From contig CAUJEL010000157.1 in NCBI GenBank assembly GCA_963169875.1, forward strand, positions 1 to 56,197: DNA of 56,197 nucleotides, in the 5' to 3' direction. Source of the DNA: Candidatus Zhuqueibacterota bacterium (GTDB lineage: Bacteria; Zhuqueibacterota; Zhuqueibacteria; Residuimicrobiales; Residuimicrobiaceae). Position 1 is the first letter of the stretch; each line of letters begins with the position of its first letter. Of the stretch, positions 7,327 through 36,256 are shown one piece after another. The notes under the pieces are model-generated. The model made no database searches and was not told the origin of the DNA. It worked only from the letters and a program-made list of their open reading frames with translations. Made by a program: the position numbers and the translations under genes.

Positions 7327-7624
7327 GAGCTTGAGAGTCGCGCTATCAGCGAATCCGCGTCATAAACCGCTGTGCGCGCCAAGTTTTTTTTGCAGGGACG
7401 AGCGAACAGGAATTGATATAAATTTCATCCCAGCGCTTGAAGGTGCTGTCGATGCTGTTTTTATGGCGCGGCTCTGCGTTTTCGGCGATGAATAATTCAT
7501 GTTGAAGCAATGGGGGGGTTCTCTTCAGCTTTCGTTTTATCCGCTAACAGTGATTTATCTTTCTGGCATCATGGTATGAGTTATGCCAGAAGAATGGAAT
7601 GCATCATTACGCCGGGGAGGCGCC
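7327..7624. other. Intergenic region upstream of the cytochrome pair
   Basis: About 300 bases with no assignable gene. On the minus strand around 7370-7500 two overlapping frames run open for about 45-55 codons; one could start at ATG 7500 and stop near 7360. Neither has an SD site or a recognisable motif, so they could be chance or a gene remnant. A T-run lies at 7383-7390. GGGGAGG at 7614-7620 is the ribosome site for the cytochrome gene. A promoter for the cytochrome genes should lie here, but no clear element is visible. Confidence 0.35.
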
Positions 7625-8968
7625 ATGAAAATCAAGATCACCCTTTTTTGCAGCTTTTTTATGTTTACCGTGCTTTTTTCGCAAATCCCGCCATCCGGTG
7701 AGGGTCTCAAGGGCAGCAAAAAGTATGATCAATTCGAAAAGCCTGAAGCCTGCAAAAGCTGTCACACCCATATTTATCAGCAATGGCGTCAGGCCATGAT
7801 GTCGCAATCTTACACCCATCACTGGGATGAGATCGAGTATTTTGATCTCGCTGTCCCTCATGCTGAAAAAGTACCCGGCCTGAAGGAACCGGTGGATGGC
7901 TGCAATGGCTGCCACACGCCCCTGGCATATATGGCAGGCGATGTGACGCCGCCGCGGCCCTCCGCCAACTCCCGTGCCAATGAGGGCGTGAGCTGTGATG
8001 TCTGTCATACCATCAGCGGCTGGGCCGGCGATGTGCCGCATAATTTCAGTTATATCTCTTCGCCGGGTCGGCGCAAATATGGCGCCAAACCCGGTCTTGT
8101 ATCTCCGCACCACGACACCGAAGCCTTGCCGCTTTATGAGCAGACTGAATACTGCGGCAACTGTCACAATGAAAAGAATCCTTATGGCATCTGGGTGAAA
8201 TCGACGCAGATCGAATGGAAAGAGGGTCCCTATGCCAGGGAAGATGTGCCTTGTCAGCGCTGTCACATGCCCAAAGCGTGGGGTAAAAACGCAACCATGG
8301 CGAAAGAAGATATGGTCGCGCAGCACCTTTTCCACGGCGCCCATGATGCCGGCAAAATAGCCGGGACCATCGAACTGCGCATTCATCCGGAAGAACATGA
8401 AATTCCCTATGATGGAACTGCCCACCTGCAAATTCAGCTCTTCAACGCCAAAACAGGTCACAAATTTCCAACCGGTTCCGTCGAAGACCGCATCGTCTGG
8501 CTGCATGTAACGGCCACAGATGCCAATGGCAAGGAATATCATCTCGCCGTGGATAAAAAAGGTTTCAGCGGCGAAGAATATACGATAGCCAGTGATGCAT
8601 TGGGATATCAGGATATGGGCATCCCCAAAGGCATCGCCAATTTCAAGGGTGTACAGCGCGACGGGGTTCCGGTTGGGGATCGCATCTTCCGTATGCCCTA
8701 TTTTGATGCTGAAGGCAATATCACCATCATGCAATGGAATACCAAAACGTTGGGCGTGGATTATCGCATCGGACCGCGAGAAACCAAAATTGAAACCTTC
8801 ACCTGGCCGCTTCCCGAAGATATCGCTCCCGGCCGGGTGGTAGTGACTGCGCAGCTCAACTACCAAAAACTGGTCAAGCCGGTGGCGGATTTTCTCGGCG
8901 TTCCAGAAGAAGAAAGCGAAATTATTCCGGTGAATTCAGCATCGACCTATTTTGAAGTCTATGAATAA
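7625..8968 (+). CDS. Secreted pentaheme c-type cytochrome (cytochrome c554-like)
   Basis: The 447-residue protein has a signal peptide (1-19) and five CxxCH heme sites: C43-H47 (CKSCH), C93-H97 (CNGCH), C124-H128 (CDVCH), C177-H181 (CGNCH) and C210-H214 (CQRCH). Spacing resembles the cytochrome c554/NrfB-like group. From about residue 235 a beta-sandwich domain follows, including the GHKFPTG motif (His may be a distal heme ligand) common in multiheme cytochromes. It should act in the periplasm or at the cell surface as an electron carrier. The start at 7625 has GGGGAGG 4 bases upstream and opens into the signal peptide; an in-frame start at 7583 would add 14 polar residues. The gap to the next gene is 16 bases, so they are co-transcribed. 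Whether it is an oxidoreductase or only a carrier cannot be told from sequence. Confidence 0.88.
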   Translation: MKIKITLFCSFFMFTVLFSQIPPSGEGLKGSKKYDQFEKPEACKSCHTHIYQQWRQAMMSQSYTHHWDEIEYFDLAVPHAEKVPGLKEPVDGCNGCHTPLAYMAGDVTPPRPSANSRANEGVSCDVCHTISGWAGDVPHNFSYISSPGRRKYGAKPGLVSPHHDTEALPLYEQTEYCGNCHNEKNPYGIWVKSTQIEWKEGPYAREDVPCQRCHMPKAWGKNATMAKEDMVAQHLFHGAHDAGKIAGTIELRIHPEEHEIPYDGTAHLQIQLFNAKTGHKFPTGSVEDRIVWLHVTATDANGKEYHLAVDKKGFSGEEYTIASDALGYQDMGIPKGIANFKGVQRDGVPVGDRIFRMPYFDAEGNITIMQWNTKTLGVDYRIGPRETKIETFTWPLPEDIAPGRVVVTAQLNYQKLVKPVADFLGVPEEESEIIPVNSASTYFEVYE

Positions 8969-23797: not shown

Positions 23798-26206
23798 TTA
23801 CAGAACGCGTATAATGACCATCGTCATATCATCGTGTTGCGGGTGTTGACCGACAAAATGCTGAACCTGGGCGATGATTTTTTGCAATAATTCTTTTGCC
23901 GGAATGGAGGCATTACGGCGAATGGCCTGTTCCAGCCGCTCTTCACCAAATTCTCCGGAAATGGGATTCATCGCCTCAGAAAAACCATCCGTGTAGAGGA
24001 TGAAGCGATCACCGGATTCGATCTTGATGGTCTGTTCTTTGATTATCTCTTTGAAGACATCGCCGGGTTCGAGTCCCAGGGCTATGCCGGGCGGACTCAG
24101 ATGTTCAAACCGTTCATTATCGCGGCGCTGCCAGATGAGCGGCGTATGGCCGGCCCGCGCAAAACTGATCGTCCGTTTCTTCAAATCGATAATCCCAAAT
24201 ACCAGGCTGATAAAATGGCCGCGATCCACGGATTCGTAAAAAAGCGTGTTGATCTCCGTCAGCACTTCCCGCGGACTCCATTTCATCCTTGATAAAGAAC
24301 GAAGAAAACCCTTGGTCAATGTCATGTAAAAGGCGGCCGATATGCCTTTGCCGGAGACATCACCGATGGCGAATCCCAGGCGATGCGCATCCAGCTTAAT
24401 GAAATCGTAATAATCGCCGCCTACTTCATTGGCCGGGATACAGATACTGGCGATCTCCAGGCCTTCTATTTGCGGATTGGATTTGGGCAAAAAGCTCAGC
24501 TGCACTCTTTGCGCGATCTCCAGTTCACGTTTGAGCCGGTCATTCTCAATTATTTTTACGGCTTGTCGTGGCAAATAGTTACGCAATTCATCCATCGATT
24601 TTGGCACGCGCCATGCCCATGCAGCGAATAGTAATAATCCCAGGGGCATCGCTAAAAGCAGCCAGCCGGAGAGCACAAACGTCGATTGATGAATCGCGCA
24701 CAGCCGCATCGCGGATAAAATGATCGCAAAGGTAAAATGCGTGACAAGTGCGGTGATAAAGTCGAAGCGAAGAAAAATGGCTGTAAAATAGATGCCCATC
24801 ACAAAGGTTATCGCCAAAGTCAGGCCGAGTGGATCACTCGGATAGCTCACCTGATTCTGCAAGCTGGCCGCGATGATGAAACCAATGGGGGTGGTAATCC
24901 AGAGAAATTTTTGTGTAGATCTCAGAAACAGGGGCACGAGAACCAGGAGGACGGCAAACTGCCACCACAGGACCTCCGCGCTCACAAGCACCATGCTGTA
25001 AAGAAAGGGGATGGTATTGGCTTCTTTGGTCAAATGAGCGCACCAATCCACGAGGCTGACGGGGTGAAAAACGGAAGTCAATTTAATGATCAGGGTGACG
25101 AAACCGGCCAGACCGATGCCCAGACTCAAGCCGCGCAAAAGGGCCTGAGCCATGATGCGATGCCTGACACGTCCGTGATATAAGGCATCCAGTGTCAGTA
25201 GTTTGTCCGATGCCACCTGACGGAGGATGGATTCGCCCGTGGCAGCGGCCACGCCCATGGCCAAAGCCGTGACACCGGAGGAGAGGAGCGTTCCAATAAT
25301 GAGGAAAATGATATCTGGACGGCTGTTGTCAATGTTGATCATGACCATCGTGGAGAGTGCAATGATGGCTGCCGGCACAGCCGCGTATTGAAAATTGACC
25401 GCATCGATGCGCAGCCTGCGAATGAGAACGATAATGCAGATAATGGTCAACAAAGCCATGAGCAGAAACAGCGGAATCATTTCGATGGCGTGTGTTTTTT
25501 CATCCTGGGCGGTCGTGGCCGGATTGTACTGCAGAGCAAATTTTGAGATACGCTGTCCAGTCACGCGGATGTTCACATGCTGCTGCAAACCGGCTGCCAA
25601 CTCTGAATACGTGTATGAAAAATGGTGCTCGATATGTTCTGACAACAAGCTGTTTCGTGTCCGCGCCAGTTCGTATCGTCCAGCCTTTTCTCCAAAACGT
25701 GCCTGCAGCACTGAATCTGCCATTGCTCTCGCAGCGGAATCGGAGAGGGATGCCTGCAGCGTATCCTCATCCTGATCAATCCAAAAGGCTACAGGACCGC
25801 CATGGTGATCGAACTGGACGACGATCTCACGGTAATTTTCAGGAAATCGGCCGCTGATGATACCCGGCGCGGGACGGTAATCCTCAGGGCGGCGCCAGCG
25901 CACCTGCCAATAATAGACGGGAAGTTGTTTCAGGGCGTCAGCACGCTCTTCAGGTTTGAACTGAAGTTCAATGTGGCGCAGAAGATCCTTGCGGATTTCA
26001 AACGTGGTCTGCACATCATAATCAGCAGGCGTGTATCCCCACATCTGCAGATATTTTTCTCCGATGCGTTCCGCCTCAGCGCGGTTGAAACTCATATCGC
26101 GCGGAAGGATGGATACCAAAGACGGCGTAAACGCGACCAGCAAGAGCAGTCCGGCACATGCGATCAACAGGTAAAAGAGGGTCTGATTAAATTGTTTTTT
26201 AGTCAT
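23798..26206 (-). CDS. Membrane SpoIIE-type PP2C phosphatase with large periplasmic domain
   Basis: The 802-residue protein has a transmembrane helix (about 9-30), a periplasmic domain (about 35-235), about eight further helices (240-545), a linker (NDRLKRELEIAQRVQLSFLP) and a PP2C domain (about 580-802). The PP2C domain shows NEVGGDYYD, GDVSGKGISAAFYM, RAGHTPLIW, YTDGFSEAMN and HDDMTMVII. The periplasmic part (RAEAERIGEKYLQMWGY) and the membrane stretch GESILRQVASDKL, ALYHGRVRHRIMAQALLRG remind me of the non-catalytic halves of large acidobacterial-type CPBP intramembrane proteases. The protease EExxxR motif is absent, so this looks like that sensor module joined to a phosphatase. That comparison is from memory. 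It is 15 bases after the propeller lipoprotein gene. Confidence 0.88.
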   Translation of the reverse strand: MTKKQFNQTLFYLLIACAGLLLLVAFTPSLVSILPRDMSFNRAEAERIGEKYLQMWGYTPADYDVQTTFEIRKDLLRHIELQFKPEERADALKQLPVYYWQVRWRRPEDYRPAPGIISGRFPENYREIVVQFDHHGGPVAFWIDQDEDTLQASLSDSAARAMADSVLQARFGEKAGRYELARTRNSLLSEHIEHHFSYTYSELAAGLQQHVNIRVTGQRISKFALQYNPATTAQDEKTHAIEMIPLFLLMALLTIICIIVLIRRLRIDAVNFQYAAVPAAIIALSTMVMINIDNSRPDIIFLIIGTLLSSGVTALAMGVAAATGESILRQVASDKLLTLDALYHGRVRHRIMAQALLRGLSLGIGLAGFVTLIIKLTSVFHPVSLVDWCAHLTKEANTIPFLYSMVLVSAEVLWWQFAVLLVLVPLFLRSTQKFLWITTPIGFIIAASLQNQVSYPSDPLGLTLAITFVMGIYFTAIFLRFDFITALVTHFTFAIILSAMRLCAIHQSTFVLSGWLLLAMPLGLLLFAAWAWRVPKSMDELRNYLPRQAVKIIENDRLKRELEIAQRVQLSFLPKSNPQIEGLEIASICIPANEVGGDYYDFIKLDAHRLGFAIGDVSGKGISAAFYMTLTKGFLRSLSRMKWSPREVLTEINTLFYESVDRGHFISLVFGIIDLKKRTISFARAGHTPLIWQRRDNERFEHLSPPGIALGLEPGDVFKEIIKEQTIKIESGDRFILYTDGFSEAMNPISGEFGEERLEQAIRRNASIPAKELLQKIIAQVQHFVGQHPQHDDMTMVIIRVL

Positions 26207-26221
26207 ATGGATATCTGCAAG

Positions 26222-27502
26222 TTATGGCGATAGCTCGGTGGCGCGGTTTTCCACGGCGACGGCAAAGGGCGCCGCGTAATCGCCGATGCGTTCAATTTTG
26301 TTTCCTGTGGACGAGATGCGATACAGGCCATAATGATCCCAACTGATGTCAGCCACCAGACAGCTGCCATCGAATTCATTGACAGCGATCTCAAAAGGAT
26401 AGCCAAAAGCGGACGTGGAAAATTCGATTTTCATATCTTGATCCGCTTTATAGAGCCTGGCAGGCTGGCCCGTGCTTTCCCAATCCACAAACCACAGGCT
26501 CTGATCCTCATTGTTGTGGGCGATCAAAGCGGCATCCACCAAGCCACCAATGCCACGTCCCGTTGGCAGCGCATTATAATCATATTCGATCACCCGGGTG
26601 CTGTCCGCAACCCACACTTTTTGCAGGCGTGGTGACAAGGCCAGATCCTTGGGCGCCATCAAGCAGGGGCCGGAGCTACTGATGCGCACGCCCCAGGCGC
26701 TGTACTGCAGCAGTTCTTTGCTGCCGCGGTCAACCAGCCAGCAGGAATGCGTCAAATTATCCGCCTTAATGGCAACCGGGACTGACAAATGGCTGATGGA
26801 AGTCATCATCTGACCGGTCCCAGCGAAAAGCTTTACTCTGCCGGGTGTGCGCTGCGCAATCCAGAGGGTGGACTGTGTCTGATCCACAGCCATATCCACG
26901 ACATTGTCGACGCCGCTCAACTGGGCGAGCAATCGCCCATCCTGGTCAACCTTGAATATCTGTTCGCCATAACGCAAGGCAACATAAGCGGCATGCTCCA
27001 GGCGGCTGCCGGCCACGCTACGGGGATAGCTCAGCAGGCCAAATTTGCATACTTCGGTTCGCAGATCGTGGCTCAGACAATAGAGATAACCACTTTGCTG
27101 ATCGGCTACCCAGGTGAAGGTTGGTCCTGGCGTGCAACGCCTCTGTTCCGAAGCGGGTGATTCATAGTCACCGGCTTGAGCGGTCACATAATAGCAATAG
27201 TCCGCTCCATCAACAACCGTCGTATCGGCGAACGTTGAAGCGCCCGTCCGACCGATTTCCGTAAACTGCGCCGAATCCGCATCACAGCAGTGGCGATAAA
27301 CAAGGTAGGCCGTCAAATCGCTGACGGGCAGTGCGTTCCAGCTCAATTCAACTTTCTTCTCCAGACCAAGCGCCACCAAACACGTCACCCTGCCTTGGGT
27401 GGCCGGATTGAGAGGATCGAGCGGGTTGTTGCGATCCCGATCCGCGCAGGAGAAAAAGAAAAGGCCCGACAAGAGGACCAGGCTGTATATTGTTTTTGCC
27501 AT
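26222..27502 (-). CDS. Propeller lipoprotein with FN3-like domain
   Basis: The 426-residue product has a lipoprotein signal (1-18) with lipobox cysteine C19 in FFFSCADRD, followed by NNPLDPLNPAT, a start typical of FCB-group lipoproteins. A fibronectin-III-like domain (about 35-120; VELSWNALPVSDLTAYLVYR) precedes a six- or seven-blade propeller of NHL/YncE type (about 130-420; repeated FxVDxxGxL and WxxD units). It is probably tethered in the periplasm or outer membrane and binds a ligand. Being the first gene of the partner-switch operon and directly before the phosphatase with the largest periplasmic domain, it could be that sensor's ligand-binding partner. That role is inferred only from gene order. 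Confidence 0.75.
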   Translation of the reverse strand: MAKTIYSLVLLSGLFFFSCADRDRNNPLDPLNPATQGRVTCLVALGLEKKVELSWNALPVSDLTAYLVYRHCCDADSAQFTEIGRTGASTFADTTVVDGADYCYYVTAQAGDYESPASEQRRCTPGPTFTWVADQQSGYLYCLSHDLRTEVCKFGLLSYPRSVAGSRLEHAAYVALRYGEQIFKVDQDGRLLAQLSGVDNVVDMAVDQTQSTLWIAQRTPGRVKLFAGTGQMMTSISHLSVPVAIKADNLTHSCWLVDRGSKELLQYSAWGVRISSSGPCLMAPKDLALSPRLQKVWVADSTRVIEYDYNALPTGRGIGGLVDAALIAHNNEDQSLWFVDWESTGQPARLYKADQDMKIEFSTSAFGYPFEIAVNEFDGSCLVADISWDHYGLYRISSTGNKIERIGDYAAPFAVAVENRATELSP

Positions 27503-27629: not shown

Positions 27630-28223
27630 TTAATGATTACATCCTTGCGAATCAGCTGGTAACGGTTCCGAAAAGACATCGGCGGTGAAGGTGAATATTT
27701 TGATGTCAGGTTCACGCCAGGCAGACTTTGGGAGACCGGCTTTGAGGCAGGTATGGTTGAGTAACTCTTCCCGATCCCAGTTCTGCTCAGGGGCGACCTG
27801 AGGCAGCAGAAGTCCCGAATGATACTCCTTTTCGACCATCACACCATGAACCCCCGGAACCACTTCCTCCGGCGAGGCGACACGACGCATGGGCGAAAGA
27901 ACGGAGATTTCGATGTGCAGATGCTCCACTTCATGAGCTTTTACCGGGTAGAACCGGGGATCGTGCAAGGCCGCGGCTTCGGCCATTTCCACAACCGTGT
28001 CAAGTAACGGTTTCATGGCGCGGACGTAACCAATACAGCCTCGCAGCTCACCCTCTTCATGCAAGGTGACGAAAGCGCCCCTTTTCTGCAGCAGTAAGGC
28101 GCTTTGCGCTGCAAATGGACCCGGGCGTTTACCGGCCGTTACGGCAGCAATGGTTTTTCTCGCTACGTCCAGGAGCAGCGTTTTATCTTCTTGGGACAAA
28201 CTGTTTTCATCACCTTCATGCAT
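27630..28223 (-). CDS. amrA: AmmeMemoRadiSam system protein A (AMMECR1 family), stand-alone
   Basis: The 197-residue AMMECR1-fold protein has the family core LRGCIGYVRAMKPL (about 60-73), AALHDPRFYPV, LHIEISVLSPM and VEKEYHSGLLLPQVA. It has no signal peptide and is predicted cytosolic. AMMECR1 proteins occur with Memo and radical SAM partners in many bacteria and archaea; their chemistry is unknown. It is the last gene of the cluster, 13 bases after the Memo-AMMECR1 fusion, giving the locus two AMMECR1 domains in different compartments. AGGA lies about 9 bases before the ATG. Confidence 0.92.
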   Translation of the reverse strand: MHEGDENSLSQEDKTLLLDVARKTIAAVTAGKRPGPFAAQSALLLQKRGAFVTLHEEGELRGCIGYVRAMKPLLDTVVEMAEAAALHDPRFYPVKAHEVEHLHIEISVLSPMRRVASPEEVVPGVHGVMVEKEYHSGLLLPQVAPEQNWDREELLNHTCLKAGLPKSAWREPDIKIFTFTADVFSEPLPADSQGCNH

Positions 28224-28236
28224 GGCAGTATCCTGG

Positions 28237-29727
28237 TTATTCGTTTATCATTTTTTCATCAAAAATCTGCGTTTCATAGAGGTAGAACTGCGCATCCTTT
28301 TTCCAGGCGCCGCGCGGCAGTCCAGCCTTCTGGCACAGGCTTTCCAACTCTTCCTCTTTGGATTTCCAGCCCGCTTCTATGGGTACCTCAGGCAAATAGG
28401 TCGCGCCGCGCCCATCCTTGATCATGATGATGCCATGTTTTCCCATTTCAAATTCATCCAGACTCCCGGCCGGATAAACATTGGTGAGATATGCTGATAT
28501 CTTGATCTCGATCTCATCCAGCTCGCTGGCTTGCAGGGGCGGAAATCGCGGATCAGAAAAAGCAGCAGCAATGGCCCGGTCAGGCACCAATTCATACAAC
28601 GGCCGATCCGATTCGTGGTAACCAATACAACCCCGCAATTGTCCGTTTTTCGTCAGGGTGACGAAAACGCCTCTCTTTTCTTTTAACCACTCATCTGTCG
28701 ATGAATAGGTTATATTTTTCTTTTCCTTCATGTAATACTTTATGCTTTCTCGAGCCATTTTCAGCAGTTCGCGCTGGGTTTTTAGCGGCAGCGGTTTAAA
28801 AGATTTTTTGCCGAACGTCTCCGCATCATCCACGAAATAAGCAACCGCCCCATAGCCGACGACATAGCCTCCCTTCTGCCCCGTTACATCATTGGAATTG
28901 GTCTGCTGCAACAGAGCTGCTTTGGTGGGTGCGGATTCCAGAGCAGCGACCTGAAGGATCACCAAGGGCGCCGCGCCGCACGCTTGATACGTTTCGGCTG
29001 AGAATCCCTGACACAGCGTGTGCGGCGCCATGCTGGTCACTGCTTCCAGTGTGGCGTGGACACTTTTTTGGCATTCTGTGTAGGAATTTCCATGATAAAG
29101 ATCCGTACTGGCAACCAAAAGTACCCGATATCCCTGAATGGCTTTAGCCAGGGCCTTGCCCATTTTTTCGCACATCGTCCAATCAAATGCGCCGATCACA
29201 ATGGGCACAATTTCTGCCTTGGGCAGGACGGTCTGTATAAAGGGAAGTTGGACTTCCACGGCGTGTTCAGGGCCATGCCCCTCATAGGACTTGACAAACC
29301 AGGCACTTTCTTTAAGCAGCGCATCTGAGATGGTCTTATTGATTTTTACCTGCCCCAATGGGGTCTCATAGGCGCTTCCCGGATAAATCGATCCGCCCTT
29401 GAAATAGGCGCGGTGGCTTGGCGCCATGACGACCACCACATCAAACTCATTTTCCTGAATTTGTTTATATCCTTCGGCAGCAACGGCTGCGGAATAGACA
29501 TAGCCGGCATGCGGTACGCTGAGGCCGATCAACCGGCCTTTTTCGGAGCAGATTTTTGCGTTAGCAAGGTAACGTCGTACGTCCTGGCACAGTTTTTGTG
29601 CATCCGCCTCATAAAACTGCCCGGCAACCACAGGTTTGCGGACATCTTCCTTGAGTTGCGCTGTGACGGACGATTGCAGACTCAGCAGGAATAGAATCGC
29701 CCCCCATTTTGATAGATGTATGCTCAT
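28237..29727 (-). CDS. amrB: Exported Memo-AMMECR1 fusion (AmmeMemoRadiSam proteins B+A)
   Basis: The 496-residue protein has a signal peptide (1-23, cleavage near VTA-QL). A Memo domain follows (about 30-300), with metal ligands equivalent to those of human MEMO1: H73 in VPHAGYVYS, H105 in APSHRAYF and C250 in CGAAPLV, plus H155 in PEHAVEVQLPF. An AMMECR1 domain (about 315-490; LRGCIGYHE, AFSDPRFPPL, YLPEVPIEAGW) completes it. Memo resembles extradiol dioxygenases and has been linked to metal and redox chemistry. Fusion of B and A is known; an added export signal means this copy would work in the periplasm. AAGG lies 9 bases before the ATG. It sits 30 bases after the radical SAM gene. Confidence 0.9.
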   Translation of the reverse strand: MSIHLSKWGAILFLLSLQSSVTAQLKEDVRKPVVAGQFYEADAQKLCQDVRRYLANAKICSEKGRLIGLSVPHAGYVYSAAVAAEGYKQIQENEFDVVVVMAPSHRAYFKGGSIYPGSAYETPLGQVKINKTISDALLKESAWFVKSYEGHGPEHAVEVQLPFIQTVLPKAEIVPIVIGAFDWTMCEKMGKALAKAIQGYRVLLVASTDLYHGNSYTECQKSVHATLEAVTSMAPHTLCQGFSAETYQACGAAPLVILQVAALESAPTKAALLQQTNSNDVTGQKGGYVVGYGAVAYFVDDAETFGKKSFKPLPLKTQRELLKMARESIKYYMKEKKNITYSSTDEWLKEKRGVFVTLTKNGQLRGCIGYHESDRPLYELVPDRAIAAAFSDPRFPPLQASELDEIEIKISAYLTNVYPAGSLDEFEMGKHGIIMIKDGRGATYLPEVPIEAGWKSKEEELESLCQKAGLPRGAWKKDAQFYLYETQIFDEKMINE

Positions 29728-29757
29728 GGTTTCGCCTTCATCAGAGCTTGGGATTAT

Positions 29758-30888
29758 TTATTTCCAAACGCCAGGTATTGGTGTGCGGCATTTTGGGCAT
29801 TGTCCGGTTTTGATTCTGTTTTCTGCAATGGCATACCCCATTCTTTTGATCAATAACTCGGAGCACTTGCTGCAATAAGTGTTCTCTCCTGGATCACCGG
29901 GAACGTTGCCTGAGTAGACAAATTGTAACCCCGCATCCTGTGCTATCTGGCGGGCTTTTTGCAGCGTTTGCAAAGGCGTGGCCGGAACATTGGTCAGCCG
30001 GTACTGCGGGTAGAAGCGCGTAAAGTGCAGCGGAACGCCGGGGCCCAGCTCTTTATAGATCCATTTGCACAAACTGCTCAATTCGTGTGGATCATCATTT
30101 TGGCCGGGAATGACGAGATAAACAATTTCAAACCAGATTTTCTCCTGCTTCAGGAGGATCAGGGAATCCAGTACAGGTTGAAGCTGCCCGGAGACCAGTT
30201 CTTTGTAGAAGCGTTCGCTGAAGGCTTTGAGATCGATCTTGACCGCGCTCAAGACCCGGCATAAATCCTTGAGTGGTTTTGCCTGGATATAACCGTTGGA
30301 AATCATGGCGGTGTGAACGCCAACGCCCCTGGCTTTCTCCGCGATGTCGTACATGTATTCAGTAAAAACAACGGGTTCATTGTACGTAAATGCAATGACA
30401 GGGCACTTTTTTTCACGGGTGAGTGCAACCAGCTTTGCAGGGGCTAAATCCAGTGAAGGCAGCTGTTCGGGACGCGATTGGGAAATCTCCCAATTCTGGC
30501 AAAATTTACAAAACACATTACATCCGGCTGTAGCAATTGACAATGCTTCGCTGCCCGGCAGGAAATGGAAGAGCGGTTTCTTCTCAATGGGATCGATATG
30601 CAAGGTACAGGGTTTGCCGTATACCAGTGTATAATAGATGCCATCACGGTTCTCCCGGACACCGCAGTAGCCTCGTTCGAGATCGTCGATCACGCAGGTT
30701 CGCGGGCAGAGCAGGCATTTTATTTTGCGGTTGGGCAATTTTTCATAATAGCGCGCCTCAACCAGTTGATCGGTTTTCATGGCCGAATGGACAGCCTTTG
30801 TCCGTGCGGGGGCTGCCATCAGAAAACACAAGCCGCCTGCCGCACAGGTCATGAACTCACGGCGATCATACAGGACGCTTGCGCTCAT
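29758..30888 (-). CDS. amrS: AmmeMemoRadiSam radical SAM enzyme with Tat-like signal
   Basis: The 376-residue protein is of the PflA-like group found with Memo/AMMECR1. It has an N-terminal cysteine cluster (C58, C61, C65, C75 in CLLCPRTC and GYCGVREN) and the radical SAM cluster C123-x3-C127-x2-C130 (AGCNVFCKFC). Other marks are FTYNEPVVF, KIDLKAF and a C-terminal zinc-ribbon-like pair of CxxC (YCSKC, QCPKC). The first 30 residues read as a twin-arginine signal: R9-R10 in DRREFM, then a hydrophobic stretch to MAAPA. A folded Fe-S radical enzyme outside the cytoplasm would need an unusual electron donor, so it may instead be retained or anchored. Its ATG overlaps the DUF362 stop as ATGA. Confidence 0.9.
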   Translation of the reverse strand: MSASVLYDRREFMTCAAGGLCFLMAAPARTKAVHSAMKTDQLVEARYYEKLPNRKIKCLLCPRTCVIDDLERGYCGVRENRDGIYYTLVYGKPCTLHIDPIEKKPLFHFLPGSEALSIATAGCNVFCKFCQNWEISQSRPEQLPSLDLAPAKLVALTREKKCPVIAFTYNEPVVFTEYMYDIAEKARGVGVHTAMISNGYIQAKPLKDLCRVLSAVKIDLKAFSERFYKELVSGQLQPVLDSLILLKQEKIWFEIVYLVIPGQNDDPHELSSLCKWIYKELGPGVPLHFTRFYPQYRLTNVPATPLQTLQKARQIAQDAGLQFVYSGNVPGDPGENTYCSKCSELLIKRMGYAIAENRIKTGQCPKCRTPIPGVWK

Positions 30889-31856
30889 ACGTCAATGACC
30901 TCTATTTTCTGCAAATCATCCGTGCCCAATCCGCGCAAGGCGGCGGTATGAATATAGGAAGGATATCGTCCTGCATCCCTGAGGGTTGGCAAATTGTTCT
31001 CACTGCGTTTGTTTTCTATGATGGTCCAACAAATCCGGTCGAGGGCGACCATGTCTTTTGCAAGTAACAAGGAACGCATGGGCCAGTTCCACTGTCGCAT
31101 AAAGGGAGGTCCGCCTTCATACTGCGCGGTGATGGCATCGCAGATCGTCAAGCGGACTTTACTGCGCAGAGCGGGGATCATATTGACATCCGCGACATAG
31201 GGATCGCCACAGGAATCGTGATATTTATTGGGATTATCGATGGCGCCGAAAAAGTTTTTCAATCCGGCGCTGATGCCGACGATGCCGTGGTCTTTTAGGA
31301 CCGGGAGGTTGATGATGGCAGTGCAATGATCCGTCACGATGCGCGACAATCTGCTGCAGGCTGATTGGTATTCATAGAGCGCCTGGCTGTAGCCCGCCGC
31401 ATCATTGCCGTAGCAGAGCGCCTGTTGTGGATTCTGATTCAGCGTAAAGCCAGCCCCTTGTAAATCCATGTTGAGCCGGTCCCAGATGATGATTTGGCCG
31501 GGTTTGAGTCCAATGGATACTAACCGGGTTATAATGGCTTGTACGAGAGAGCTATGTGTGGAAAAATATTTACCGGCGAGACAGCTGACTTTGAGTCCCA
31601 CGATATCCCGCGGGGATACAATCTCCGCCCATGCCTCTTTGCCTGGCATTTGCAGCAGAGCTTCCATACCCCGATCGAGCGCACGCAGGACGTGATCTGC
31701 TTCAGCGCCGCTCTTTGCGGATGGCAAGTTGGCTTGCACCACCCTTGCGGTCAATGCAGGAGCCGCGAACAGATCTTGCAGCGCCAGCGGCGTCAAGGTC
31801 GCCCCAACAGCCAGCGCTGCATGGTCTTTAATAAAATCTCTTCTGCTGATTGACAT
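30885..31856 (-). CDS. DUF362 domain protein with Tat signal
   Basis: The 323-residue product starts MSISRRDFIKDHAAL, a clear twin-arginine signal (R5-R6) ending near FAAPA. DUF362 features follow: DIVGLKVSC, TAIINLPVLKDHGIVGISAGLKNFFGAID and a C-terminal region with LLLAKDMVALDRI. DUF362 proteins are often found with ferredoxin domains; here there is no CxxCxxC cluster, so no Fe-S centre is expected. Function unknown. It is the first gene of the AmmeMemoRadiSam operon and overlaps the radical SAM gene by 4 bases, implying co-export and joint work. The ATG at 31856 is preferred to an in-frame GTG at 31868 because it begins the Tat motif directly. Confidence 0.85.
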   Translation of the reverse strand: MSISRRDFIKDHAALAVGATLTPLALQDLFAAPALTARVVQANLPSAKSGAEADHVLRALDRGMEALLQMPGKEAWAEIVSPRDIVGLKVSCLAGKYFSTHSSLVQAIITRLVSIGLKPGQIIIWDRLNMDLQGAGFTLNQNPQQALCYGNDAAGYSQALYEYQSACSRLSRIVTDHCTAIINLPVLKDHGIVGISAGLKNFFGAIDNPNKYHDSCGDPYVADVNMIPALRSKVRLTICDAITAQYEGGPPFMRQWNWPMRSLLLAKDMVALDRICWTIIENKRSENNLPTLRDAGRYPSYIHTAALRGLGTDDLQKIEVIDV

Positions 31857-31873
31857 CAAAGCGCACACCCATC

Positions 31874-31945: not shown

Positions 31946-33952
31946 TCAACGTAAGAATCTATCGACCAATCTCCGCAAACCAGTGGCAGTTTCTTCAATC
32001 TCTTTGGATTCCTCCGGTTTGCTTTCAGGCACTTCTACAGGGGAAGGTGATTGTGGTGCTTCTTTGCCTTGAATATAGAGCATGCGATTATCGATGGCGA
32101 TGGCGACCTGATTGGCGAGTATTTCCAGGATGCTGACACTTTCCGTGGTGGGCATTCTTCCATCGCTGGGATCATCGACCATGATAAATCCGATGATTTT
32201 GCCTTCTCTGGATTTGATGGGCACCATGAGCAGGGCGTATCGCGGCCATCCGTCATGATAATGTCCGTTGGTGAGATTGCCATAATAAATCTGTTTGAAA
32301 TGTCGGAGAACAGGTTCTTCGGTGCTGATCAAGAACGATTTGCCGCGGCGGTATTCATCGCGCAGCAGCATGCTGAAATCTTTCAGATCATACGCCAATT
32401 CGCTGATCTGCGACAGTTTGATCTTGTCATCGCAGGCGACCGCCTTGGTTTCCAGTTGTCCGGTTTTTTTGCTGATGAGCACCAGCGAGACGAGGTTAAA
32501 TTCGAGTGAAAATTTCACGGACCAGACCACCTCGCGCAACAGTTCGCTCAAGCTGAGATAAAGCTTGAAAATATTGCTGTTAACCATGACCTGTTTGAGG
32601 CGACGATTGCGCCGGTCCAGCGTTGAGTAGCGGTAATAATTCTCAATGACCATGGAGACCAGCAAGCTGAACAATTCCAGATTATAAAAGGTCGTGCTGG
32701 TCGGCGTCATATCGTCCAGAGGCTCGTCGATGGAGACAAAGCCAAATTGGCTGCCGTTGTGGTCCGCCAGGCGGAGCAGCACCAGATCGCGCGGGTGCCA
32801 CTGGGTTTCCTGGGTATTGTTGAACTGCTGCAGGGCGGTCGACTGTGGATTGTGCAGCGCTTCCGAGGAGACGAGTTCCTGGTTGTAATAGATGATTTTC
32901 ACGGGGTTTTTGTCGATGAACAGACGATCCACGACATCCTGGGGCACATCAAGGGGCCGTCCTTCGGCGTTTGCGGCAGACTCGTTGTAACCGACCAAGG
33001 CATGTTTTACATAGGTCTTTTTTCGGCGATCGAGGAGCGCCACCGTTGAACGGGTGAACCCGAAAACCTGACAGACCACTTCGCCAATACGCTTCAGGAG
33101 TACATTAATGGGCTCTGTATAACTCATTTGCACCAGGTCCAGCAAATGCTGAACCATGATATTCTGGTCTATGGGCCCTGTTGGGCGCATTTCTTCACTC
33201 GAAGCGCCCGTGCGCGCCACCACGGCCCCGCGAAAACCGATAATGCGCTGCTCTCGTGATTCATCATGAAGCATGGTGATATTCAGAAACACCGGATGGC
33301 TGTTGCCGATCTTGTCGATCAGGTGCATGGGAATCGACGAAGTGGAGGCGGATTCGTTTTCATCAAAGACGCGTTGAAAAAAGATCTGTTCTTCCGCTTT
33401 ATTTAAAAGGTCGGACAGGGATAATTCAAGTATTTCGTCTTCGGAATATCGGGTCAGGCTCTGCAGGCTTTTATTGGCGGAGAGGAAACGTCCGCGGCGA
33501 TCACAGATAAAATAGCCTTCACCAGGCAAGGAAGGTATTTTGCTGGTGGATGCTGGTTGCGCCGGGGTTTTAGCCGGCTTGGGTACCCGTCTGGAATGGC
33601 TGTCGCGGATGGCATCCGCCAGACTGCTCAGATAACCCTTTGTCTTGAAGAGCAGCGTAACATTCTTCTGACTCTGCAATTCAAAAGTCAGTTGACTTTC
33701 GGTTTCATCCAAAAGAATGATAAGGGGGTGATATGGTGCGTTGTTTACAAGTTTTTCTATTCTGTTTTGCGGTTGATCATGCAGTAAAACGGCATCAATG
33801 ACCGATACTTCGGCTGATTCTTTTTCTATATTGGCGGATACATCTGTTAATGAGGTGGCGCCTATGGTTTGAAAATCTTCTCCTTGTGCGGCTAACAGTT
33901 GGTTGATCGCATCAAGATAAGAAGTAATAGGATGCCCGATTTGGATTTTCAT
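31946..33952 (-). CDS. PAS/GAF sensor protein with degenerate receiver and no output domain
   Basis: The 668-residue soluble protein begins with a receiver-like domain (about 1-118). This keeps an aspartate in VSVIDAVLL and a lysine in LFKTKGY but lacks the N-terminal acidic pair. A PAS domain (about 148-255; GEGYFICDRRGRFLSANKSL, LTRYSEDEIL) and two GAF-like domains (about 275-445 and 465-635) follow, then an acidic P/E/S-rich tail. No kinase, phosphatase, GGDEF or DNA-binding domain is present. It may therefore pass its signal by protein contact, for instance to the nearby cyclic-nucleotide or partner-switch proteins. The start at 33952 opens the receiver fold; an upstream codon at 34018 would add 22 residues outside the fold. 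A terminator follows. Confidence 0.78.
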   Translation of the reverse strand: MKIQIGHPITSYLDAINQLLAAQGEDFQTIGATSLTDVSANIEKESAEVSVIDAVLLHDQPQNRIEKLVNNAPYHPLIILLDETESQLTFELQSQKNVTLLFKTKGYLSSLADAIRDSHSRRVPKPAKTPAQPASTSKIPSLPGEGYFICDRRGRFLSANKSLQSLTRYSEDEILELSLSDLLNKAEEQIFFQRVFDENESASTSSIPMHLIDKIGNSHPVFLNITMLHDESREQRIIGFRGAVVARTGASSEEMRPTGPIDQNIMVQHLLDLVQMSYTEPINVLLKRIGEVVCQVFGFTRSTVALLDRRKKTYVKHALVGYNESAANAEGRPLDVPQDVVDRLFIDKNPVKIIYYNQELVSSEALHNPQSTALQQFNNTQETQWHPRDLVLLRLADHNGSQFGFVSIDEPLDDMTPTSTTFYNLELFSLLVSMVIENYYRYSTLDRRNRRLKQVMVNSNIFKLYLSLSELLREVVWSVKFSLEFNLVSLVLISKKTGQLETKAVACDDKIKLSQISELAYDLKDFSMLLRDEYRRGKSFLISTEEPVLRHFKQIYYGNLTNGHYHDGWPRYALLMVPIKSREGKIIGFIMVDDPSDGRMPTTESVSILEILANQVAIAIDNRMLYIQGKEAPQSPSPVEVPESKPEESKEIEETATGLRRLVDRFLR

Positions 33953-33998
33953 GCCACCAAGTTCTCCCTTTATCCCAGTCACAACACATCGTCGAATT

Positions 33999-34059
33999 AG
34001 TATAGCTAAAATTAACAAAATCTTTCGTAAAATGTCAAGCGAATAAATAATTAATTATT
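33999..34059 (-). promoter_or_regulatory. Candidate promoter and AT-rich palindrome upstream of the PAS/GAF gene
   Basis: A perfect 14-base palindrome, AATAATTAATTATT (34046-34059), sits a few bases from a consensus TTGACA on the minus strand (34033-34038). A TATACT (33999-34004) is well formed but 28 bases from the TTGACA, so the pairing is not standard. The palindrome could be an operator. Confidence 0.3.
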
Positions 34060-35386: not shown

Positions 35387-36256
35387 TTACAAACAGGCTT
35401 GAAACGCAGCAATGTGCGCTGGCGTCGTTCCACAGCAGCCACCAATAAAATTTGCGCCCGCGGCGATCAGAGCCGGAATTTTGCCCGCCATTATTTCCGG
35501 TGATTCCTTATAGACCGTTCGCCCATCCACATACTGAGGCAGTCCCGCATTGGGCTCAGCCAGCAACGGCAAGTTTGTCTGCTTTCGCATCTCTTTGATG
35601 ATTTCGATGGCATCCTCCGCCCCAGTACCGCAATTGCAGCCAAGGACATCGGCGCCCGCTTGTGATAACGCAGGAACAGCTGCCGTCGTATCAACCCCCA
35701 TCATGGTGCGATAGCCGCGCTGGCCTGCTGCAAAGGTCAGGGAAGCGATGACCGGTACGCCGCACACCTGCTTGGCGGCGCGCAGAGCGATCAGTGCTTC
35801 CTGCAGATCTGACATCGTTTCGATGATGATGCAGTCCGCGCCGCCGCGGACCAGGTTTTCGGCCTGGATGAGAAAACCCTGGAAGAGTTCCTCTTCGCTG
35901 ACTTCTTCCATCATCAGCATGGCGCCTGAGGGTCCCATAGAGCCGGCAACCCATACTTTTTCTCCCGCACACTTACGGGCGATCTCGGCAGCGCGACGAT
36001 TTATCAAACCGGCGTCCTCTACGATTTTTGCGGATGTGAGTTTATGCGGACTGCCGCCGAAGGTATTGGTGGTGAGCACGTGTGCACCTGCATTCACATA
36101 GGCTTGATGCACCTGTGCGACACGATCAGGATGTTGCAGATTCCATCCTTCGGGCGCTTGCCCGATAGGCAGGCCGAGTGCCTGCAGCTCCGTGCCGATG
36201 CCGCCATCGAAAAGGATCACGCCTTCCCTGGCTGCGTCGAGGATACTCTTTTTCAT
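35387..36256 (-). CDS. Homocysteine S-methyltransferase family protein
   Basis: The 289-residue TIM-barrel enzyme matches the homocysteine-binding module of MetH. It has ILFDGGIGTELQ (14-25), LTTNTFGGSP (61-70), GSMGPSG (105-111), VLGCNCGTG with C207/C209, and IGGCCGTTP with C274/C275 as the zinc-binding cysteines. It transfers a methyl group to homocysteine to make methionine; the donor could be S-methylmethionine, or a methyl-cobalamin protein since no folate or B12 module is attached. It starts 3 bases after the SPOR gene stop. Family certain, donor unknown. Confidence 0.88.
   Translation of the reverse strand: MKKSILDAAREGVILFDGGIGTELQALGLPIGQAPEGWNLQHPDRVAQVHQAYVNAGAHVLTTNTFGGSPHKLTSAKIVEDAGLINRRAAEIARKCAGEKVWVAGSMGPSGAMLMMEEVSEEELFQGFLIQAENLVRGGADCIIIETMSDLQEALIALRAAKQVCGVPVIASLTFAAGQRGYRTMMGVDTTAAVPALSQAGADVLGCNCGTGAEDAIEIIKEMRKQTNLPLLAEPNAGLPQYVDGRTVYKESPEIMAGKIPALIAAGANFIGGCCGTTPAHIAAFQACL

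Follow-up and report, generated by a model that had tools for sequence, protein, structure and literature searches.

The window analysed here, a 56,197-nucleotide stretch of DNA from a Candidatus Zhuqueibacterota bacterium, contains a four-gene operon of the AmmeMemoRadiSam type, a conserved, uncharacterised radical-enzyme system, and the first three of its proteins begin with export signals. The radical SAM enzyme falls in a clade spread over at least 12 phyla whose members begin with signals of this kind and keep their catalytic residues. Export of these proteins is very likely on the basis of their sequences, and the best explanation overall is probably that the DUF362 protein, the radical SAM enzyme and the Memo-AMMECR1 fusion form a module located in the cell envelope. 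We found no literature on an exported AmmeMemoRadiSam or an extracytoplasmic radical SAM enzyme, in a search that left uncovered Burroughs et al. 2019, reportedly a review of the Memo superfamily; within this scope, the exported form is a variant of a known system for which an earlier description was not found.

Organization of the operon

The four genes form a tight operon on the minus strand, between positions 31856 and 27630, in the order DUF362 protein (D, 31856–30885), radical SAM enzyme (R, 30888–29758), Memo-AMMECR1 fusion (MB, 29727–28237) and stand-alone AMMECR1 protein (A, 28223–27630); all operon features given below are on this strand. D and R overlap in an ATGA, and the gaps that follow are of 30 nt (R to MB) and 13 nt (MB to A). 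D starts with ATG, with an alternative GTG at 31868. Its sole Pfam match at E≤0.001 is DUF362 (PF04015, 56.8 bits), R scores 395.6 bits against the AmmeMemoRadiSam radical SAM model TIGR04337 (cut-off 220), MB scores 237.7 bits against TIGR04336 (cut-off 26), and TIGR04335 is matched by both MB (167.4 bits) and A (183.7 bits; cut-off 99). All three AmmeMemoRadiSam subunit types exceed their curated cut-offs, and R contains the CxxxCxxC motif. The coordinates and family scores agree with the first-pass annotation of this DNA, which had read here four coupled genes for DUF362, radical SAM, Memo-AMMECR1 and AMMECR1 proteins. The window system resembles known AmmeMemoRadiSam in that all three components pass the cut-offs and the catalytic residues are kept, and departs from it in the three export signals, the Memo-AMMECR1 fusion, the DUF362 partner, the distinct clade of its R, and a genome that apparently encodes a cytosolic trio as well.

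A PAS/GAF protein is encoded upstream of the operon (31946–34018) and recurs at 17 loci in the phylum, and SpoIIE-type phosphatases, encoded downstream (23798–26206), are likewise recurrent in this neighbourhood, a hint of common regulation. The stretch separating the operon from the SpoIIE gene contains a gene (26222–27502) for a lipoprotein-like protein without a Pfam match, which recurs at four phylum loci. An upstream gene at 35387–36256 has a start that by eye is homocysteine methyltransferase-like, and a similar gene is found at three phylum loci.

Export signals of the operon proteins

Twin-arginine motifs had been proposed for D and R and a Sec signal for MB, with A left unsignalled, and these assignments held in every case. 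The signal region of D (31752–31856), MSISRRDFIKDHAALAVGATLTPLALQDLFAAPAL, has an RRxF-type motif and a hydrophobic stretch, and scores 24.8 bits against the NCBI Tat model TIGR01409 (cut-off 16.7). The N-terminus of R (30781–30888) is MSASVLYDRREFMTCAAGGLCFLMAAPARTKA, in which YDRREFM precedes a hydrophobic, Cys-containing core; this region is kept across the clade described below. Because TIGR01409 does not report the window R at E≤0.01, the case for its Tat signal rests on conservation: among 84 homologues selected for the RR, the second arginine (R10) is invariant and the first (R9) is at least 90% conserved. The model also lies outside the 25 families most matched by 84 R homologues, the 25th of which has 15 members. 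MB begins with a plain Sec signal, MSIHLSKWGAILFLLSLQSSVTA (29659–29727), and A begins directly with its AMMECR1 domain. The window genome encodes a Tat translocase, with TatC and two TatA-type genes.

The R signals are richer in cysteine than those of D. A cysteine stands within 22 residues after the RR in 84 of 90 R signals against 22 of 57 D signals (Fisher p 5e-13, with relatedness ignored), and cysteine content is 7.3% in R Tat signals and 2.2% in D signals, the R cysteines lying inside the hydrophobic core. They occur at +11, +12 and +15 after the first arginine and do not in general fit a lipobox, which makes lipoprotein modification of R at these residues doubtful.

A clade of radical SAM enzymes with export signals

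Relatives of R were taken from the 80 best genome loci retrieved with the window protein, a set biased to its close relatives, from family-model matches in the 33 genomes behind those first loci, and from TIGR04337 matches in 82 genomes of the window's phylum, which were unselected by signal. A tree of 173 TIGR04337 cores, with the signal regions removed before building, has two groups, an exported clade (n = 114) and a cytosolic remainder (n = 59). FastTree gives the exported clade a support of 98, and IQ-TREE on a subset gives the same split with zero mismatches (SH-aLRT 83). The clade covers at least 12 phyla, among them Acidobacteriota, Planctomycetota, Omnitrophota, Aminicenantes, KSB1, Calditrichota, Armatimonadota, Poribacteria, Latescibacterota, Chrysiogenota, Myxococcota, Eiseniibacteriota and Sumerlaeota.

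Export-type N-termini are present in 113 of 113 readable members of the exported clade and absent from 58 of the 59 cytosolic enzymes; the single Tat call outside the clade (L159) is doubtful and looks false. A script called 98 of the 114 clade members Tat, 6 Sec or transmembrane, and 10 none. When the latter were re-read by eye, eight proved to be Tat-like misses (anchoring, KR or charged-residue), one (L192) has a short Sec-type start, and one (L043) is lost at a contig end. Nearly all members use a Tat signal and about seven a Sec signal or membrane anchor. Within the clade one signal type has been exchanged for another, which points to selection acting on location. A consistent lack of signals among homologues had been named beforehand as the finding that would speak against export, and the homologues keep them. 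It could still be asked whether the motifs arose by chance or from mis-called starts, as the silence of the NCBI Tat model on the window R at E≤0.01 might suggest, but the unbroken series in the clade against one doubtful call outside it, together with the matching signals on neighbouring proteins, effectively rules this out, short of start codons mis-assigned across the whole clade.

The catalytic parts of the enzyme are the same in both groups. The radical SAM cluster motif CNVFCKFC (30499–30522), with C123, C127 and C130, is invariant in the 114 exported-clade and 59 cytosolic enzymes, and the N-terminal C58/C61/C65/C75, the C-terminal C339/C342/C364/C367, and E102, E177, K221 and R349 (which include SAM-site residues) are invariant or nearly so. 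Since the catalytic residues and 11 cysteines are unchanged in the exported enzymes, the active site has not been relaxed by export; the invariant residues rule out R as a vestigial enzyme. By profile, the closest solved relative of R is the pyruvate formate-lyase activating enzyme (PDB 3c8f, E 2e-13). The glycyl-radical enzyme activases are cytoplasmic, and R differs from them in its additional N-terminal four-Cys and C-terminal four-Cys motifs. It scores 61.4 bits against PFLA, below the cut-off of 231.75, and no glycyl-radical partner enzyme recurs among the neighbours of exported loci.

Partner proteins

The neighbours of exported R genes are themselves signalled. DUF362 proteins adjoining an exported R were called Tat by the script in 57 of 63 cases and by eye in 3 more, in line with the earlier proposal that DUF362 is a co-exported partner; at two Aminicenantes loci (L039 and L040) D is without a signal of its own. 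All 72 of the Memo proteins at exported loci have a hydrophobic segment at the N-terminus. In roughly 45 genomes of the phylum, by hand count and with partial copies included, an exported R lies directly beside a Memo, which is mostly in a fusion-length frame. Around the 59 cytosolic R genes, a scan out to 3.5 kb with models derived from the exported forms detected no D, Memo or AMMECR1. Also common in the phylum is a third type of Memo, with frames of about 410–490 aa and lower scores.

These signals bear on two alternatives to work outside the cell's cytoplasm. The N-termini could be membrane tethers, with the catalytic domains kept at the cytoplasmic side, and some of them do resemble uncleaved anchors (L072, L073, L086). 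However, an RR ahead of the hydrophobic stretch favours an N-in, C-out orientation, tethering would have no need of the RRxF consensus, and the partners carry Tat signals (D) and Sec or lipoprotein-type signals (MB), so that we regard tethering as very unlikely. Alternatively, R could be a maturase that acts on D or another partner a single time, before export, and then leaves the cytoplasm with it through Tat to be inert or structural outside. SAM and reductant are present in the cytoplasm, R is nearest to the glycyl-radical enzyme activases, which modify a partner protein, and the unsignalled D of the two Aminicenantes loci looks like a hitchhiker. Tat does carry folded, co-assembled partners, as reported for PaoABC (PMC4273604). 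Against this, MB, exported unfolded by Sec, could meet R and D only outside, the Sec or anchor signals of about seven R enzymes mean that prior folding with a partner is not general, and the glycyl-radical partner is not recurrent. A maturase role confined to the cytoplasm is thus, in our judgement, unlikely.

An AlphaFold2 model of mature D (pLDDT 96.6) has top structural matches that all belong to the LarA family of lactate and malate racemases (VIA Z 13.6–16.6 over about 210–222 residues, with the next unrelated match at 5.0). D shares with LarA an H-x3-G-x-S-x-G-x-K motif with equal spacing from H190 to K200, and a weak profile alignment of the two pairs the same histidine and lysine, whose LarA counterparts we take to be the LarA His and the cofactor lysine. 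The motif and the following H213 lie at 31218–31289, and H190, K200 and H213 are invariant or nearly so. No Lar_N (PF09861) match was found in D, in which DUF362 alone is matched at E≤0.001, and the window genome, which is 95.6% complete, has no match to LarC (PF01969). Because LarC is absent from the genome, we do not call D a nickel-pincer enzyme, despite the fitting fold and motif, and make no claim of a nickel-pincer nucleotide (NPN) on it. A Lar_N protein is encoded elsewhere in the genome (C139:47029–47622) although LarC was not found.

The Memo domain of MB (28840–29640) aligns with human MEMO1 (PDB 7kq8) over 202 residues that span H49 and H81, both of which have aligned equivalents, with the stretch around C244 outside the alignment. 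H49, H81 and C244 are the iron ligands of MEMO1 (PMC11081632). MB differs from human MEMO1 and the iron extradiol dioxygenases in being secreted, as predicted from its signal, and in its fusion to an AMMECR1 domain (28261–28770), recognised by TIGR04335.

A membrane neighbour with a spermidine synthase fold

A further neighbour recurs beside exported R, a membrane protein of 700–850 aa with a PF01564 domain. Of 112 exported loci, 35 have it nearby, whereas none of the 59 cytosolic loci, which are similar in length, does. It is seen in at least four named phyla (e.g. L055:8552–10909), and the window genome encodes one such protein on another contig (L238). In an AlphaFold2 model (pLDDT 87) the domain is set between seven helices on either side, 14 in all. 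Lysines and arginines in the short loops number 493 on the cytoplasmic side and 120 on the other, with the same sign in 22 of 22 sequences, and because of this bias on the seven-helix model the soluble domain is predicted to face outwards.

The soluble domain is similar to spermidine synthase (PDB 1uir and 2o05, E 6e-38), from which the protein differs by its 7+7 flanking helices and in key residues. When 22 sequences are aligned to solved spermidine synthases, E336, D338 and D368 are invariant; these presumably correspond to the acidic residues that bind ribose and adenine. The Asp of GGGDGG, in contrast, is lost (position 316 is A, V, I, L or M), and at position 386, where the catalytic Asp is mostly replaced, 15 of 22 sequences have N. 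We take positions 316 and 386 to be the catalytic acidic residues of spermidine synthase, and the full catalytic pair is not retained, which speaks against a spermidine synthase. With the three binding residues kept and the two acidic catalytic positions lost, the protein is likely to bind an S-adenosyl compound but not to transfer an aminopropyl group. It could be a supplier of SAM to the exported enzymes, and may move, present or sense SAM.

Two probable trios in one genome

The window genome has two R genes (one on the window's contig, C157, and one on C164), two Memo genes (C157 and C18) and two AMMECR1 domains (MB and A, both on C157). The second R and Memo proteins (R′ and Memo′), encoded on the other contigs, are without signals. 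Two AMMECR1 domains split between compartments had been proposed, and there are indeed two copies, one signalled and one not; however, since A is the sole AMMECR1 in the genome besides MB, and the second R and Memo are signal-less and elsewhere, a pair of complete trios accounts for the copies better than a split does. The simplest reading of these gene counts is one full trio per compartment, with R and MB outside and R′, Memo′ and A inside, and A probably serves the cytosolic one. Most genomes of the phylum have both a long and a short R gene.

Proposed site and course of catalysis

We know of no radical SAM enzyme that works outside the cytoplasm, nor of SAM or a strong reductant there. Catalysis outside the cytoplasm is the best reading of the signals and active sites, and we hold it with moderate confidence, on evidence drawn entirely from sequences and structure predictions. 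R (carrying its iron-sulfur cluster) and D (perhaps holding a cofactor) would fold in the cytoplasm and exit through Tat, and MB would exit through Sec and be loaded with metal outside. The three would then constitute an envelope-located AmmeMemoRadiSam module whose target may be either a small molecule or a component of the envelope: R would convert SAM to a 5′-deoxyadenosyl radical outside the cytoplasm, the Memo domain, with its MEMO1-type iron site, and AMMECR1 would perform a linked redox step, and D, with its LarA fold, would bind or rearrange the same compound as R and MB. SAM might come from the 14-helix membrane protein, with its S-adenosyl-binding domain turned outward, and the electron from a membrane or periplasmic donor; A, R′ and Memo′ would make up the separate cytosolic trio. 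It counts against this model that the membrane protein adjoins just about one third of exported loci and, in the window genome, is encoded on a different contig. The wider proposal, that radical SAM enzymes of the whole clade work outside the cytoplasm in many phyla with SAM delivered or presented by an outward-facing S-adenosyl-binding protein, is tentative and somewhat doubtful.

Multiheme cytochromes close to the operon had been put forward as a possible electron donor, and this part of the earlier interpretation was not supported. The nearest CxxCH-rich ORF (7583–8968, with five motifs), which is the only multiheme candidate in the window, is about 19 kb from the operon on the opposite strand, and the neighbours of exported loci include no recurrent cytochrome family; the distance and the lack of a recurring cluster speak against a multiheme cytochrome as a nearby donor. 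No recurrent electron donor was found near the exported loci.

Significance

Radical SAM enzymes are regarded as cytoplasmic because of their need for SAM and a strong reductant and their fragile cluster. A clade that has conserved both its export signals and intact active sites calls this cytoplasm-only view into question, and the recurrence of export signals in at least 12 phyla suggests that radical SAM chemistry may also occur in the cell envelope. Memo and AMMECR1 both have human homologues, and a genome with two trios offers a built-in comparison for their unsolved chemistry. The added partners, DUF362 and the membrane protein with the SpeE fold, narrow the guess at a substrate, and with the exported version the questions of location, SAM supply and partners become open to direct tests. 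If the proposal is true, bacteria of many phyla would run SAM-based radical chemistry in the envelope.
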